NCBI GenBank assembly: GCA_902797175.1
Contig: CADBRX010000114.1
Coordinates: 1 to 50,392 of the forward strand
DNA length: 50,392 nucleotides
Reading direction: 5' to 3'
From: an uncultured Coriobacteriaceae bacterium
GTDB lineage: Bacteria; Actinomycetota; Coriobacteriia; Coriobacteriales; Atopobiaceae
In this document: piece after piece, positions 28,215 through 38,306 of the stretch
Layout of the letters: every line of letters begins with the position of its first letter
Position numbering within the stretch: position 1 is the first letter of the stretch
The notes under the pieces: model-generated
Seen by the model: the letters and a program-made list of their open reading frames with translations, nothing else
Told to the model about the DNA's origin: nothing
Databases searched by the model: none
Translations under genes and position numbers: made by a program

Positions 28215-28255
28215 AGATGTTCATGGACTTTTGCATGACGAAAGGACGGTCCCAC

Positions 28256-31132
<2,877 letters not shown>

Positions 31133-31303: not shown

Positions 31304-34273
31304 ATGGAGCACTTGGATAGGGGAAGGGCGACGGCATCGCCCGCAGCTAGGGCGCCACGGCGTCGCGTCCCGTACTGGGACAACGTCAAGTTCGTCTTGA
31401 TCTTTTTGGTGGCGCTCGGTCACTTCCTCTACTGCAGGGAGGACCTTCGCATCGTGCGCATGCTCACCATCGGCATCTACACGTTCCACATGCCGGCCTT
31501 CGCCTTTGTGTCTGGATATCTGAGCAAGTCCTGGACCAAGGAGAACCTGGGGCAGAAGCTTCCCCAGCTGGCCAAGCTCGTCGTCGCCTACGTGGTGTTC
31601 AACGGGGTCTTCGTGCTGTGGGCGGCGCGCAGCGGCTCCGACGTCTACCTCATCCATCCGTACTATTCCTACTGGTACATCATGGCGCTGTGCGTGTGGC
31701 GCCTGACCGTGGGATACGTGGGGTCCTTCACGTTGGGGCTGCCCCTGTCCGTGCTGGCCGCGCTGCTCGTGGGCTTCTGGAGCGATGCGGGAAACGCCTT
31801 CGCGTTTGGGCGCACCATCGCCTTCTACCCCTTCTTCCTGGGCGGCTACCTCATGCCGCGTGCATGGGGCGTGCGTGTGGCCGACCTGAAGCCAAAGACG
31901 AAGGCCCTCGTGGGCGGCCTGCTCTGCCTGGCGACCGTCGCCGCCATCGCGGGTTCGTTCATGCTGCTGCACTATGACTACAGCCATGTCCTCATGGATC
32001 CCTACGCCCGCCGCTTCGACGTGGTCTCGCGCGCGGCGATCCTTCTGGTGGCGTGCCTCGCGACCGCGGCCATCCTCGTGGTGACGCCCAACGCGCGCCT
32101 TCCGCTCGTGACCACCATCGGGCGCAACTCGCTCATCGTGTACCTGCTTCACCGATACTTCGTGCTCGTGTTCGAGCGCCTTTTTGCCCCCGGCGCCTCC
32201 GACCTTACCCTCATCGTGGGGTCGATCGTGGGTTCGGTGGCGCTGCTCGCGCTTCTGGGGAACGAGTTTGTGGCCAAGGCGACCAACGGATTCCTCGACG
32301 CGGCGGCGACGGCGCTCACGCGTACGCCCTCGAAGGGCGTCGTGGGCGTGCTCTCCAAGGCGTTCTGCGTGCTCATGGTGGCTGCCGTGGCAGTTGCGCC
32401 CATCTATGCGATGCGCTCCGCGGACACGACGACCACGGGTGCGGGCATGGGCATCTACCAACGCATGGATGCGCAGACCGAAGACGCGCTGTCCGATTCC
32501 TACACCATCCTCTTCTCCGGCGACCTGATCCTGCTGGAGGACCAGGTGCGACGGGCCTACGACGGGGAGGGATACGACTTCTCGGACCTCTTCACCTACA
32601 CCAAGCCCTACATCGAGGCCGCCGACCTCGCCATCGGGGTGTACGAGGGTCCCTCTGCGGGTGCCGAGGCGGGATACTCCTCCGGCAACTTTGACGACTA
32701 CAAGCCCATGTACGTGAACATGCCGGACGAGTTCGCGACGGCGGTGCGTGACGCGGGCTTCGACCTGGTGACCACGGCCAACAACCACCTGCTCGACCGT
32801 GGCGAGCAGGGAGCCCTCCGCACGCTTGACGTGCTTGACGCCGCAGGATTGCAGCACATCGGCTCCTATCGCTCAGAGGAGGAGAACAAGGCGGAGCGCG
32901 TGAAGGTCATCGAGCTCGACGGCCTGAAGATCGCGGTCCTGGCCTACACGTACGGCGTGAACCAGACCGACTCGACGGACTACCCCGACGCGACCTTCGT
33001 CGACGGCGAGTTCTCCTACCTCACCTCCACGATCGTCTCGCCCAACTCCCCGCAGTTTGCCGAGGCCAAGACGGCCGTCCAGGCCGACCTCGCCCGCGCG
33101 AAGGTGCTCGGCTGCGACCTCATCGTCGTGCTGCCGCATTGGGGAACGATGCTGACGCACTCGACGGACGAGCTGCAGCGGACATGGCGCGACATCTTCA
33201 TCGAGGGCGGCGCGGACATCATCTTGGGCGACCACAGCCACGCGGTGCAGCCTAACGTGCTCGAGGAGGTCGACGGCAAGATGACCTTCACGTGCTACTG
33301 TCCTGGCCACTACACCGACGTGTACACCGGGCGCGATGCCGACGCAGCCGCGCTCGTCGAGGTGCATGTCGACCGCGAGAGCAAGCAGGTCATCGGCGCC
33401 TCGGTGGTTCCGATGTGGTGCGAGTCGTCGATGAGCGGCAACTTCCGCGCGCTTCCCATCTACGACATCCTCCATAACGACGAGCTCGGGCGCGAGCTTG
33501 CGACCCATGACCTCGACCGCCTCGACACGGTGCACCGCATCGTGACGTCGGTCATGCTGGGCGAGGAGATGGGCCTCGAGATGGCCCACCCGCGCCTGAC
33601 GATGACGCCCGAGGGCTTCCGCCGCGCGAGCGTCGAGCAGATCGAGGTGACCGAGGAGATGGGCGCAGGCACGCTTGCCGAGGCGCTGCTCAACGCCCAG
33701 GACGTCTGCTTTGTGGGCGACGACGTGACCGCCGGTACGGGAAACGGCGGCTACGGCTGGTATGAGCCCATCGAGAGCCAGGTCAGGGGCAACGTCACGC
33801 GCGTCGCCGAGGGCAACGCCACGGTCCGCACGATGCTGGGCAAGGTGGGCGAGATGACCGAGTCGCCCGCGGACCTCTACGTGATCGCGCTTGGCGCCAA
33901 CGACATCCGCCTCAGGGACTCGAGCGTCTGCGCCATGAATGCCGACGAGTACGTCGCACGCCAGCGCGAGCTGGTCAAGGCCATCCGCGACGTGGCGCCC
34001 AACGCGTGCTTCTGCTTCATCGCGCCGTGGACCTCCACGTCGGGAGACTTGGGCACGCCCCTCTACATCGAGGAGAAGACGACCCTCATCAACGAGTACA
34101 CCTCGGCGCTCGAGGAATTTGCCAAGGCGGACGGCCACCTGTTCGTCAACGCGAACCCGGGCATCAACGACGTCATCGACCGCTACGTGCAGTCGGACTA
34201 TCTTATCGACGCCTTCCAGCCCAACGCGACCGACGGCATCACGCTCTATGCCCGTGCCGCCATGGAGGCCTAG
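31304..34273 (+). CDS. Three-part fusion: membrane acyltransferase, CapA-like domain, degenerate SGNH-like domain
   Basis: This 989-residue protein joins three recognisable parts. Residues about 24-370 form a multi-pass acyltransferase-3 domain with Asp26 and His40 in DNVKFVLIFLVALGHF. Residues about 400-720 look like a CapA/PGA_cap metallophosphoesterase-like domain: FSGDLILLED (Asp407), TANNHLLDRG, LPHWG and LGDHSHAVQP. The C-terminus from about 798 is an SGNH/GDSL-like hydrolase, with FVGDDVTAG (805-811) and ALGANDIR (Asn866). The block-I serine is replaced by Asp807, and the block-V DxxH is DAFQ (969-972), so esterase activity is doubtful. ATG 31304 has GGAGGA upstream. It probably modifies a cell-surface polymer. 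ybaK follows after four bases. Confidence 0.85.
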   Translation: MEHLDRGRATASPAARAPRRRVPYWDNVKFVLIFLVALGHFLYCREDLRIVRMLTIGIYTFHMPAFAFVSGYLSKSWTKENLGQKLPQLAKLVVAYVVFNGVFVLWAARSGSDVYLIHPYYSYWYIMALCVWRLTVGYVGSFTLGLPLSVLAALLVGFWSDAGNAFAFGRTIAFYPFFLGGYLMPRAWGVRVADLKPKTKALVGGLLCLATVAAIAGSFMLLHYDYSHVLMDPYARRFDVVSRAAILLVACLATAAILVVTPNARLPLVTTIGRNSLIVYLLHRYFVLVFERLFAPGASDLTLIVGSIVGSVALLALLGNEFVAKATNGFLDAAATALTRTPSKGVVGVLSKAFCVLMVAAVAVAPIYAMRSADTTTTGAGMGIYQRMDAQTEDALSDSYTILFSGDLILLEDQVRRAYDGEGYDFSDLFTYTKPYIEAADLAIGVYEGPSAGAEAGYSSGNFDDYKPMYVNMPDEFATAVRDAGFDLVTTANNHLLDRGEQGALRTLDVLDAAGLQHIGSYRSEEENKAERVKVIELDGLKIAVLAYTYGVNQTDSTDYPDATFVDGEFSYLTSTIVSPNSPQFAEAKTAVQADLARAKVLGCDLIVVLPHWGTMLTHSTDELQRTWRDIFIEGGADIILGDHSHAVQPNVLEEVDGKMTFTCYCPGHYTDVYTGRDADAAALVEVHVDRESKQVIGASVVPMWCESSMSGNFRALPIYDILHNDELGRELATHDLDRLDTVHRIVTSVMLGEEMGLEMAHPRLTMTPEGFRRASVEQIEVTEEMGAGTLAEALLNAQDVCFVGDDVTAGTGNGGYGWYEPIESQVRGNVTRVAEGNATVRTMLGKVGEMTESPADLYVIALGANDIRLRDSSVCAMNADEYVARQRELVKAIRDVAPNACFCFIAPWTSTSGDLGTPLYIEEKTTLINEYTSALEEFAKADGHLFVNANPGINDVIDRYVQSDYLIDAFQPNATDGITLYARAAMEA

Positions 34274-34277
34274 CGGG

Positions 34278-34781
34278 ATGGCTCGTCGCGACCGTCTGCA
34301 GAAGACCAACGCGATGCGCGAGCTCGAGCGCGCGGGCATCCCCTTTGCCGTGATGGAGTATGCGGCCGATGACGGGAGCCCCTCCAGCGGCTATGGCGTC
34401 CATGTGGCGGAGCTGCTGGGTGAGGACCCCGCGTCCTCGTTCAAGACGCTCGTCACGGTGACCCCCTCGGGCGGTCACGTGGTCTGCTGCATCCCCGCTG
34501 CGGAGGAGCTTGACCTCAAGAAGGCTGCGGCTGCGGCAGGGGAGAAGTCCCTCTCGATGCTGCACGTCCGCGACCTCGAGCCCACGACGGGCTACGTCCG
34601 AGGAGGCTGCTCGCCCGTGGGCATGAAGCGAGCGTTTCCGACGCTGATCGACGAGACGGCGCAGCTCTTTGACGAGATGAGCGTTTCGGGCGGGCGGCGA
34701 GGGCTTTCTATCAAGCTGGCGCCGAATGACCTCGTGACCTTTACGGGCGCCACACTTGCGGATATCTGTCGGGAGGCTTGA
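34278..34781 (+). CDS. ybaK: Cys-tRNA(Pro)/Cys-tRNA(Cys) deacylase, YbaK type
   Basis: The 167-residue editing-domain protein hydrolyses Cys wrongly attached to tRNA(Pro). Family motifs are TNAMRELERAGIPF near the start, FKTLVTVTPSGGHVVCCIPAAEELDLKKAA in segments (the Lys of the active region included), and GYVRGGCSPVGMKRAFPTLID. The start is four bases after the preceding stop, and murJ begins four bases after its own stop, so the three are probably one transcript. Confidence 0.93.
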   Translation: MARRDRLQKTNAMRELERAGIPFAVMEYAADDGSPSSGYGVHVAELLGEDPASSFKTLVTVTPSGGHVVCCIPAAEELDLKKAAAAAGEKSLSMLHVRDLEPTTGYVRGGCSPVGMKRAFPTLIDETAQLFDEMSVSGGRRGLSIKLAPNDLVTFTGATLADICREA

Positions 34782-34785
34782 GAGC

Positions 34786-36408
34786 ATGGCAGAGGCTTTG
34801 GAAGGGGAGACGACCGAGGGCACGGAGGAGCAGGGCGCACGCGCCGAGAGCTCGGCCGCCCTCATGAGCGTGCTCGTGGTGGTGAGCCGCCTGACGGGCT
34901 TTGCGCGCACCTGGGCACAGGCCTATGCGATGGGCGCCACCGTGCTCGCGAGCTGCTATGAGGTCGCCAACAACATGCCGACCCAGATTTACGAGCTGGT
35001 GACGGCCGGCATGCTGGTGACGGCGTTTCTGCCGGTGTACCTCTCCGTCAAGAGGCGCCTGGGCCAAAAGGGCGCCAACGACTACGTGTCAAACCTCACG
35101 TCCATCGTGGTGCTCATCACGGGGGCGGTCACGCTCGTCTCGTTTGCCTTTGCCGCCCAGATCATCTGGACGCAGTCGTTCAGCGCCGCAGAGGACTTCG
35201 ACTCCGCGCTTTCGGTCTGGTTCTTCCGCTTCTTCGTGATCGAGATCGTGCTCTATGCGCTTTCGACCATCTTCCAGGGCGTGGTCAACGCCGAGCGGGA
35301 CTACCTGTGGACCTTCCTGGCGCCCATCTTCAACAATCTGGTCGTGATGGCCTCCTTCATGGGCTACAGCGCCTTTGCCCAGAGCATGCCCAAGCTTGCC
35401 CTGGTCATCCTGGCAATTGGCAACCCCCTGGGCGTGCTGGTGCAGGTCCTTCTGCAGCTGCCGTCCATGCTGTCGCATGGCGTGCGCCTGCGCTGGCGCA
35501 TCGACCTGTCCGACCCCGCGCTCAAGGACACCGTCAAGATCGGCGTGCCGTCCATCGTGGTCATGGTCCTGGGCTTTGTCACCAACTCCTTCCAGATGAA
35601 CGCCCTGCTCTCCTTTACGGCGATCGGTGGCTCCATCGGCACGTACGCGCTGCTGTGGTTCAACCTTCCCTATGCCGTCTTTGCGGTCCCCCTGACGACG
35701 GTGCTCTTCACGGAGCTCTCCGACTACTACGCATCGGAGGACATGGAGTCGTTCAAGGACATGGTGGTCACGGGAACGGGCAAGCTGGCGTTTGCCCTCG
35801 TGCCCTTCGCGATGTTTCTGGCCGTCTTTGCGCGCCAGCTCATAACGCTCATCTCGGCGGGGAGGTTTGAGCCCGACGCCTTGGAGCTGTGCGTGCTATA
35901 CCTGGTGTGGAGGGCCCCGTCGCTGCCGTTCTACGGCGTGGGCATGTATCTCCAGAAGGTGTGCTCCGCCACGCGCAAGATGGAGCTCTATGCGGGCGCG
36001 AGCGTGGTGTGCGGCGTGGTCCAGGTGCTGCTGCTGCAGCTCGTGGCCCCCTCGGCAGGCCTGTGGATGGTCCCGTTCACCTCGTGCGTGTTCTACGCCG
36101 TCTTTGACGTCATCGTGTACGTCTGGCTGCGCAACACCTACGGCAGCCTCGGCCTCACCAAGATGGTCAAGGGCGTCGTCCGTGCGGTGGTGTTTGGCCT
36201 GGCGGGGTCTGCGGTGGCCCTTGCCATCCTGCACGTCGCCCAGGCCTATCTCGGGCTGGGTGGGGGCTCCCTCATGGATTCGCTGATGCTGTGCGTGGTG
36301 GCCGGCATCCCCGCGGTGCTCGTGACCTATGGCGCCGCCGCCGCGCTCCGTGTGCCCGAGGCCTCGACCGTGACGACCGTCGTCAATCGTCTGCTGCGCC
36401 GCGCATAG
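34786..36408 (+). CDS. murJ: Lipid II flippase, MurJ/MviN family
   Basis: The 540-residue multi-pass membrane protein moves lipid-linked peptidoglycan precursor across the membrane. It has the MviN pattern SAALMSVLVVVSRLTGFAR near the start, AYEVANNMPTQIYELVTAG-like sequence (here SCYEVANNMP), FFRFFVIEIVLYALSTIFQG and APIFNNLVVM. An acidic N-terminal tail of about 22 residues precedes the first helix. ATG 34786 has GGGAGG upstream, overlapping the ybaK end. A hairpin terminator follows at 36435. Confidence 0.93.
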   Translation: MAEALEGETTEGTEEQGARAESSAALMSVLVVVSRLTGFARTWAQAYAMGATVLASCYEVANNMPTQIYELVTAGMLVTAFLPVYLSVKRRLGQKGANDYVSNLTSIVVLITGAVTLVSFAFAAQIIWTQSFSAAEDFDSALSVWFFRFFVIEIVLYALSTIFQGVVNAERDYLWTFLAPIFNNLVVMASFMGYSAFAQSMPKLALVILAIGNPLGVLVQVLLQLPSMLSHGVRLRWRIDLSDPALKDTVKIGVPSIVVMVLGFVTNSFQMNALLSFTAIGGSIGTYALLWFNLPYAVFAVPLTTVLFTELSDYYASEDMESFKDMVVTGTGKLAFALVPFAMFLAVFARQLITLISAGRFEPDALELCVLYLVWRAPSLPFYGVGMYLQKVCSATRKMELYAGASVVCGVVQVLLLQLVAPSAGLWMVPFTSCVFYAVFDVIVYVWLRNTYGSLGLTKMVKGVVRAVVFGLAGSAVALAILHVAQAYLGLGGGSLMDSLMLCVVAGIPAVLVTYGAAAALRVPEASTVTTVVNRLLRRA

Positions 36409-36618: not shown

Positions 36619-36653
36619 GACTTTTCCGAATGCAGACGACGAAAGGCATGGCT

Positions 36654-38306
36654 ATGGTGGGCACCCCCCGTGGGTTCAGAGACATCCTCCCCAGCGAGGC
36701 GCTGGCGCGCGAGCGCATTTCCGAGAAGGTGCGGGCGTGCTTCACGGCGCATGGCTACCTTCCCGTCGAGATGCCCATGCTCGAGGAGCACGCCGCGCTC
36801 GAGCGCGGCGGCCATGTTCCCGCTTCGCCCTTCAGGCTCTTTGACTCGGATGGCGGTCTGCTCGTGATGCGTCCCGACATCACGCTCGCCATCGCCCGCA
36901 TGGTCGCCACGCGCATGCCCCAGAGCGCCTGGCCGCTCAGGCTGCGCTACAGCGCGCCGGTTGCCCGCGAGGAGTCCACGCTTGCCGGGCAGCCACGGCA
37001 GTTCACTCAGCTTGGCGTCGAGCTCGTGGGCGGGGAGGGCATCGCGGGCGAGGTCGAGGTCGTGGCCCTGCTTGCCGAGACGCTCGAGGCGCTCGAGGTG
37101 CCGGCCTGGACGATCGTGTGCGGGTCGGTGACGCCGCTCACGATGCTGCTCTCGAACTGCGCCCCGACGCCGGCGTTCCTTGACCGCGCGCTCGAGCTCG
37201 TGCACGCATCCGACCTGGTCGGGCTCGACGAGCTGGTGGACGGGGCGTCCCTCGCGCCTGGTGCCGCCCACGCGATAAAGCGGCTCCCGCGCCTGGCGGG
37301 CGGAATGGAGGTCCTTGACGAGCTGGATGCCCTGCTCGCGGATGCCTGCGTCCCCGCGGCGCAGGATGGCACGCGCGACCTGCGTGAGCTCTCGCATGCC
37401 CTCTCCGACCTTGTCGGCCGGGGCGTGCTGCGCTTTGACTTCTCGGTCATCAACTCGTTCGACTACTACACCGGCACCGTCTTCAAGGGATACGCGGAAG
37501 GCATCACGGCGGCCATCGCCTCGGGCGGGCGCTATGACGCGGTGCTCGCAAACCAGGGACTCGAGGACACCGCCGCCTGCGGATTCATGCTTTCGCTCGA
37601 GCGCCTCCAGGAGGTGCTGGGCGTGCAGGGAGAGTCGGGCGTCGTGGCGCGCAAGCTTCCGCTGGCCGAGCGCCCCCTGCGCATCGCGGTGCCCAAGGGC
37701 TCGCTCTTCAAGGACGCGGTGCGCCTGTTGGGCGAGGCGGGGCTGCCCGTGGATGAGCTGGCCGACATCGGGCGACGGCTCATCATCCGCGCCGAAGGCG
37801 TGGAGTACATCATCGTCCGCGCACAGGACGCCCCCACCTTCGTGGCGCATGGCGGAGCGGATTGCGGCATCTGCGGGTCCGACTCCATCATCGAGGCGGG
37901 CGTGGACGTCATGCAGCTTGTCGACCTGAACTTCGGCGCCTGCCGCTTTGTCGTGGCGGAGCCCGCCTCGGCTGCCGGCAGCGCCGACGAGGCGTATGCC
38001 TGGCGCGGCACGGTCCGCGTGGCGACCAAGTACCCACGCATCACCACGGCCTACTACGACAGCATCGGACAGCAGGTCGACATCGTCCAGCTGCACGGCA
38101 ACATCGAGCTTGGTCCCATCGTGGGCATGTGCGACCGCATCGTCGACATCACGCAGACCGGCGCCACGCTCGAGCAGAACGACCTCGTCATCGTCGACGA
38201 CGTGATGGAGTGCTCCGCCCGCTTCTTTGCGGGGCCGGCCGCCTACCGTTCGGATATGCGCATTAAGGAGCTGGCCGCGCGGCTGATGCGTGCGGCCCAG
38301 CGTTGA
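36654..38306 (+). CDS. hisZ-hisG: Fused HisZ-HisG: ATP phosphoribosyltransferase regulatory plus catalytic subunit
   Basis: The 550-residue protein carries out the first step of histidine synthesis, joining PRPP and ATP. Residues 1 to about 325 are HisZ, a histidyl-tRNA-synthetase paralogue: TPRGFRDILPSEA, VMRPDITLAIAR, FDYYTGTVFKGY and ASGGRYD. From residue 342, LRIAVPKGSLF begins a short-form HisG of about 209 residues that continues to the end, with GADCGICGSDSI and the PRPP-loop region VDIVQLHGNIELGP. The frame is continuous with no internal stop. HisZ and short HisG are normally separate proteins. ATG 36654 has GAAAGG seven bases upstream; an earlier in-frame ATG at 36630 lacks one. Confidence 0.93.
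   Translation: MVGTPRGFRDILPSEALARERISEKVRACFTAHGYLPVEMPMLEEHAALERGGHVPASPFRLFDSDGGLLVMRPDITLAIARMVATRMPQSAWPLRLRYSAPVAREESTLAGQPRQFTQLGVELVGGEGIAGEVEVVALLAETLEALEVPAWTIVCGSVTPLTMLLSNCAPTPAFLDRALELVHASDLVGLDELVDGASLAPGAAHAIKRLPRLAGGMEVLDELDALLADACVPAAQDGTRDLRELSHALSDLVGRGVLRFDFSVINSFDYYTGTVFKGYAEGITAAIASGGRYDAVLANQGLEDTAACGFMLSLERLQEVLGVQGESGVVARKLPLAERPLRIAVPKGSLFKDAVRLLGEAGLPVDELADIGRRLIIRAEGVEYIIVRAQDAPTFVAHGGADCGICGSDSIIEAGVDVMQLVDLNFGACRFVVAEPASAAGSADEAYAWRGTVRVATKYPRITTAYYDSIGQQVDIVQLHGNIELGPIVGMCDRIVDITQTGATLEQNDLVIVDDVMECSARFFAGPAAYRSDMRIKELAARLMRAAQR

Follow-up and report, generated by a model that had tools for sequence, protein, structure and literature searches.

We found that an uncultured Coriobacteriaceae bacterium from the gut (family Atopobiaceae in GTDB) encodes a protein in which an acyltransferase-3 (AT3) membrane domain, a CapA-like domain and a C-terminal SGNH domain are joined, and that the SGNH domain has lost its catalytic serine and histidine while staying under constraint. 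The most plausible explanation, to which we assign a probability of roughly 0.55, is that this domain is a lineage-specific pseudoenzyme, kept for binding or structure within a machine that would transfer acyl groups to a surface polymer. The gene lies in a stretch of 50,392 nucleotides, analysed as a whole and referred to here as the window, from a 2.25-Mb draft genome of 194 contigs.

The open reading frame starts with ATG at 31304, has a good ribosome-binding site (GGAGGAG) upstream and ends with the TAG stop codon at 34271–34273. The initial annotation described the product as a single 989-residue protein combining the three domains, and Pfam searches bore this out: Acyl_transf_3 (51.1 bits against a cut-off of 31), PGA_cap (182 bits against 27) and Lipase_GDSL_2 (residues 803–960; 45.2 bits against 32.9) were all found above their cut-offs and in the same order. 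The view that a CapA domain in the middle is unusual also held, as the architecture is rare, though it occurs in other genomes as well. An assembly artefact or chimera was considered and rejected, since a separate metagenome-assembled genome (MAG) carries the same fusion with the same GDD/DAFQ substitutions.

Table 1. Coordinates of the fusion gene, its parts and its conserved neighbours in the window.
Feature	Coordinates	Strand	Basis
AT3-CapA-SGNH triple-fusion gene, 989 aa	31304..34273	+	ORF, Pfam, orthologues
Acyl_transf_3 (AT3) membrane domain, residues 23–316, with Lys29-X10-His40	31370..32251	+	PF01757, motif
Last hydrophobic segment, residues 346–364, candidate TMH11	32339..32395	+	Hydropathy
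PGA_cap / CapA-like calcineurin-fold domain, residues 401–653	32504..33262	+	PF09587, conservation
Linker between CapA and SGNH domains, residues 731–795	33494..33688	+	Region between Pfam domains
SGNH (GDSL-like) domain, residues 796–989, catalytically degenerate	33689..34270	+	PF13472, profile search matching solved SGNH esterases
Asp807 (codon GAC) at the catalytic Ser position	33722..33724	+	AGC in G007, G006 and G002; AAC in G009
Asn838 at the block II Gly position	33815..33817	+	Gly in every other homologue
Asn866 of block III GxND (GANDIR), retained	33899..33901	+	Sequence comparison
Gln972 (codon CAG) at the catalytic His position	34217..34219	+	CAT in homologues covering this position, except in the window and G003
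uvrA, conserved upstream neighbour	28217..31132	+	Pfam, synteny
YbaK-type aminoacyl-tRNA editing domain protein	34278..34781	+	PF04073; starts 4 nt after the fusion stop
murJ (lipid II flippase family), conserved downstream neighbour	34756..36408	+	PF03023

Orthologous triple fusions were found in seven assemblies altogether, in two of which a contig end interrupts the gene. The genus, represented by 18 genomes, accounts for six of them, including both interrupted ones; the seventh, complete and with 40–41% identity, belongs to a different genus of the same family (G093). Elsewhere in the order, G335 has only the CapA-SGNH half, as a 609-residue protein with 42% identity and without a predicted membrane segment or signal; an Asp/Glu racemase, an AMP-dependent ligase, an MBOAT protein and hexapeptide proteins are encoded nearby. 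Across 246 sampled genomes of the phylum, the SGNH profile gave no further match with an E-value below 1e-20. A mobile or viral origin was rejected: viral contigs searched with the protein and both domain alignments yielded no relatives, and no plasmid record covered most of the protein.

In all six carriers of the genus the gene follows uvrA and is itself followed by ybaK and/or murJ where the contig continues; most of the other genomes of the genus have ybaK or murJ after uvrA instead. The UvrA tree places the carriers inside one clade of eight (support 100/100). Of the remaining two clade members, G013 lacks a detectable orthologue, its murJ lying immediately behind uvrA, and in G016 the contig stops. 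This distribution is most simply explained by a single insertion at the clade's base, followed by loss in G013. Farther downstream, positions 36630–38306 of the window hold an open reading frame that fuses a HisZ-like tRNA-synt_His domain (residues 15–326) to a HisG ATP phosphoribosyltransferase domain (397–552); in G007, G006 and G009, too, frames of similar length and start lie downstream of the fusion gene.

When the SGNH residues and codons were compared, the substitutions reported by the initial annotation were confirmed: GDS has become GDD at Asp807, the final DxxH has become DAFQ (Asp969 to Gln972), and GxND is kept. A third change, Asn838 at block II, had been missed; the sister species keeps glycine there. 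Among the residues of an active SGNH enzyme (Ser of block I, Gly of block II, Asn of block III and His of block V), the window protein retains only Asn866 of block III, and the catalytic Ser-His-Asp triad, present in G007, G006 and G093, is absent.

Block I reads GDS in G007, G006, G002, G093 and G335 and GDN in G009; the window and G003 share GDD. These last two also share DAFQ as the final motif, for which G007, G006, G009, G093 and G335 have DxxH; the truncated G002 sequence stops before it, and the end of the G009 gene was read from a second contig that starts inside the gene. Intact GDS and DxxH thus occur together in four homologues that were read to the end (G007, G006, G093 and G335, the first two from the genus). 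The alignment showed that GDD and DxxQ are not conserved in the family but shared by the window and its closest relative only, namely G003, which has 89% protein identity and derives from an independent Atopobiaceae MAG from roe deer jejunum (record JAFUBJ010000578.1). The codons found in the genus for serine (AGC), asparagine (AAC) and aspartate (GAC) are one step apart, and the change of histidine to glutamine is CAT to CAG.

Since intact homologues exist, the broken site is a derived loss rather than a feature of the family, and the intact site is ancestral. The initial annotation had allowed that such homologues would make this copy merely a mutated one; the homologues were indeed found, but two species share the broken site and the domain is under purifying selection, so that it is more than a random mutation. 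In the gene tree, G009 groups with the intact clade with modest support, corresponding to two separate losses of the serine. A single loss, with G009 grouped with the window, is not rejected (p-AU 0.17–0.38). The UvrA tree places G009 at the base, a grouping that the gene data oppose weakly (p-AU 0.04–0.13).

In OafA, the S412A and H590A variants leave 0.4% and 0.9% of the signal, respectively, and both residues are essential (PMC7448272); losing both should therefore abolish SGNH catalysis. The change of glycine to asparagine at block II need not be harmful alone, because OafB has asparagine there (PMC7448272). We looked for a different Ser/His pair in the window SGNH domain and found no substitute histidine: the only one in the domain, His945, lies outside block V, is not conserved and corresponds to phenylalanine in G007. 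Judged from these residues, an acyl-enzyme mechanism in this domain is very unlikely. The initial annotation had proposed either a binding or regulatory module or a changed mechanism; a non-catalytic module is the best reading, whereas the position of His945 and its lack of conservation make chemistry by Asp807 unlikely. That Asp807 might act as a nucleophile or acid could be argued from its occurrence, together with Gln972, in two species separated by a dS of about 0.4–0.7, but block V offers no conserved histidine or other obvious base by which an acyl-aspartate could be turned over, and the asparagine of G009 at the same position suggests tolerance rather than selection for aspartate. We consider such altered chemistry highly improbable.

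The claim that the C-terminus has an SGNH fold was upheld by the Pfam match and by a profile search, which matched solved SGNH esterases. A model built from two sequences (pLDDT 56) gave mainly SGNH esterase matches, with a best Z of 7.4; its confidence is low, and it is taken as supporting only. A CapA-SGNH model built from one sequence (pLDDT 40) was set aside. Axe2 acetyl-xylan esterase and sialate O-acetylesterase resemble the domain both in the profile match and in the low-confidence fold match; unlike these enzymes, the window domain has neither the nucleophile serine nor the base histidine.

To describe selection on the degenerate domain, the window gene was compared with that of G003. 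The dN/dS of the SGNH domain was 0.144 (bootstrap 95% interval 0.076–0.244; dS 0.43), compared with 0.060 for CapA and 0.094 for AT3, as determined for one species pair by a simple Nei-Gojobori count. The SGNH point estimate exceeds the other two, with overlapping intervals. For the intact pair G007 and G006, the SGNH value was 0.108 (0.059–0.171). The degenerate domain is constrained, perhaps slightly less than the intact one. Nine of the 53 SGNH positions that are invariant in the four intact homologues differ in the window or G003, including 807 (Ser), 813 (Arg), 870 (Tyr), 971 (Ile), 972 (His) and, for the window alone, 838 (Gly). When the comparison was reversed as a control, 6 of 50 positions changed, none of them catalytic. 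As a separate observation, dS between the window and G003 is lower in the SGNH part (33689–34270; 0.43) than in AT3 and CapA (0.64–0.68), possibly owing to recombination or chance.

The possibility exists that the domain is simply decaying, having lost its job in the lineage of the window and G003, and perhaps of G009, and being carried along by useful AT3 and CapA domains. The loss of both serine and histidine in two species, and of the serine in G009, would fit such a process, as would the loss of the block II glycine in the window and of the invariant Arg813 and Tyr870. The SGNH part is also the least constrained domain of the degenerate pair, and G013, from the same clade, does without a detectable orthologue. 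As its dN/dS is the highest of the three and only two species are involved, slow decay after loss of function may be under way. However, neither the value of 0.144 nor its upper bound of 0.244 comes near neutrality. Both species also keep the domain at full length with an open reading frame, even though a useless C-terminal domain might easily have been truncated. Decay is thus a conceivable explanation but, on balance, an unlikely one. The AT3 scores, too, are lower in both GDD/DxxQ species (54.7 and 63.3 bits) than in the others (70–73 bits), so the whole protein could be drifting.

AT3 acyltransferases have ten membrane helices, and an eleventh when an SGNH domain follows. By simple hydropathy, the window protein has eight segments and the G007 protein nine, including one just before CapA; this last segment, the candidate TMH11, would place the remainder of the protein outside the cell. 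Lys29-X10-His40 is invariant in all homologues with an AT3 domain, and an R/K-X10-H motif in the first membrane helix has been defined for AT3 acyltransferases (PMC7448272).

In the CapA-like domain, Asp407, Glu448, Asn494, His495, Asp498, His612, His644 and His646 are invariant in all eight sequences. They match, in order, the site residues of MslH and YmdB (PMC10406935); Asn494-His495-Asp498 were aligned with these, and the remaining residues correspond by motif order. The lasso-peptide epimerase MslH shares with the fusion a CapA-related calcineurin fold, with a weak match around the NNH motif, and the same succession of Asp, Glu, Asn-His-x-x-Asp and His-x-His, but its architecture is different, and the fusion scores 20 bits with the MslH equivalog NF038314, the cut-off of which is 700. 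CapA/PgsA of poly-gamma-glutamate capsule systems has the same PGA_cap domain; in the fusion, unlike in those systems, it is joined to AT3 and SGNH and the neighbours are uvrA, ybaK and murJ. None of the genus's 18 genomes, several of them incomplete, yielded CapC (PF14102), under conditions where the Bacillus subtilis control was positive. A role in a polyglutamate capsule (CapBCA/PgsBCA) was therefore rejected, and 'CapA' does not signal such a capsule here.

Another possibility is that catalysis in this lineage falls to the CapA-like metal domain, which would act on a surface polymer as a hydrolase, transferase or epimerase, and that SGNH positions the substrate for it. CapA is the most constrained domain, all eight of its metal-site or catalytic positions are invariant, and the fusion is the sole PF09587 protein found in G003 and in G006. 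The two-domain CapA-SGNH protein of G335, with its gene neighbourhood, points in the same direction, but its lack of a membrane segment or signal means that its role may differ, and CapA domains in such a setting have no known activity. We regard this proposal as doubtful. More doubtful still is a new three-part acyl-transfer machine in which, within one genus, the CapA metal site took over the final extramembrane step and the SGNH carrier became an acceptor-binding pseudoenzyme.

Other CapA and AT3 proteins were seen in the course of the analysis. The G335 cluster (L042, 1–17274) encodes two CapA proteins, one of them the protein fused to an intact SGNH domain, and also a heparinase-like protein; it looks like a surface-polymer modification locus. 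In G292 (L043, 4343–10933), CapA proteins of 655 and 1121 residues adjoin a stand-alone AT3 gene, and the longer one runs, by eye, into repeats and an apparent ATP-grasp-type C-terminus. G093 encodes (L104, C6) an AT3 protein of at least about 890 residues with, by eye, seemingly at least two tandem C-terminal SGNH-like units.

The preferred reading, a retained pseudoenzyme, suggests the following mechanism. By analogy with OatA and OafB, the AT3 domain would use acyl-CoA as donor at the inner face of the membrane and deliver the acyl group outside, where the putatively extracytoplasmic CapA-like metal-enzyme domain and the SGNH domain would lie; action on a surface polymer is likewise proposed from OatA and OafB only. 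The SGNH domain of the wider family has the Ser-His-Asp site that characterises acyl esterases or transferases such as OatA and OafB, and in the intact relatives its serine would accept the acyl group and hand it on. With Ser replaced by Asp and His by Gln, the window domain could probably no longer form an acyl-enzyme. As this acyl step would be missing, transfer would have to go by another route: from AT3 directly to the acceptor, as is assumed for AT3-only enzymes, via CapA, or through another protein. The retained SGNH domain would most likely bind the acceptor polymer or hold the machine together. The same genome also encodes an OatA-like AT3-SGNH protein (G000:C158), separate from the fusion and with GDS and DDGTH, suggesting that ordinary SGNH-mediated transfer is covered elsewhere.

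AT3-SGNH fusions are already well known. A 2022 review of AT3 proteins describes fusions with SGNH and with alanine racemase (VanT), and the word CapA is absent from it (PMC9558356). In open-licence papers we found nothing on AT3-CapA-SGNH or AT3-CapA fusions, or on an SGNH pseudoenzyme of this kind. The AT3 literature asks whether SGNH serves chemistry only or also binding, and how AT3-only enzymes work without SGNH (PMC9558356, PMC7448272). The orthologous group constitutes a natural experiment, in which the same protein at the same locus has an intact, half-lost or fully lost SGNH site, and it offers a setting for testing CapA activity apart from polyglutamate synthesis. Like OatA, OafA and OafB, the fusion has an N-terminal AT3 domain with K/R-X10-H, a last hydrophobic segment and a C-terminal SGNH domain; unlike them, it has CapA inserted between AT3 and SGNH, and the window protein lacks the essential serine and histidine.
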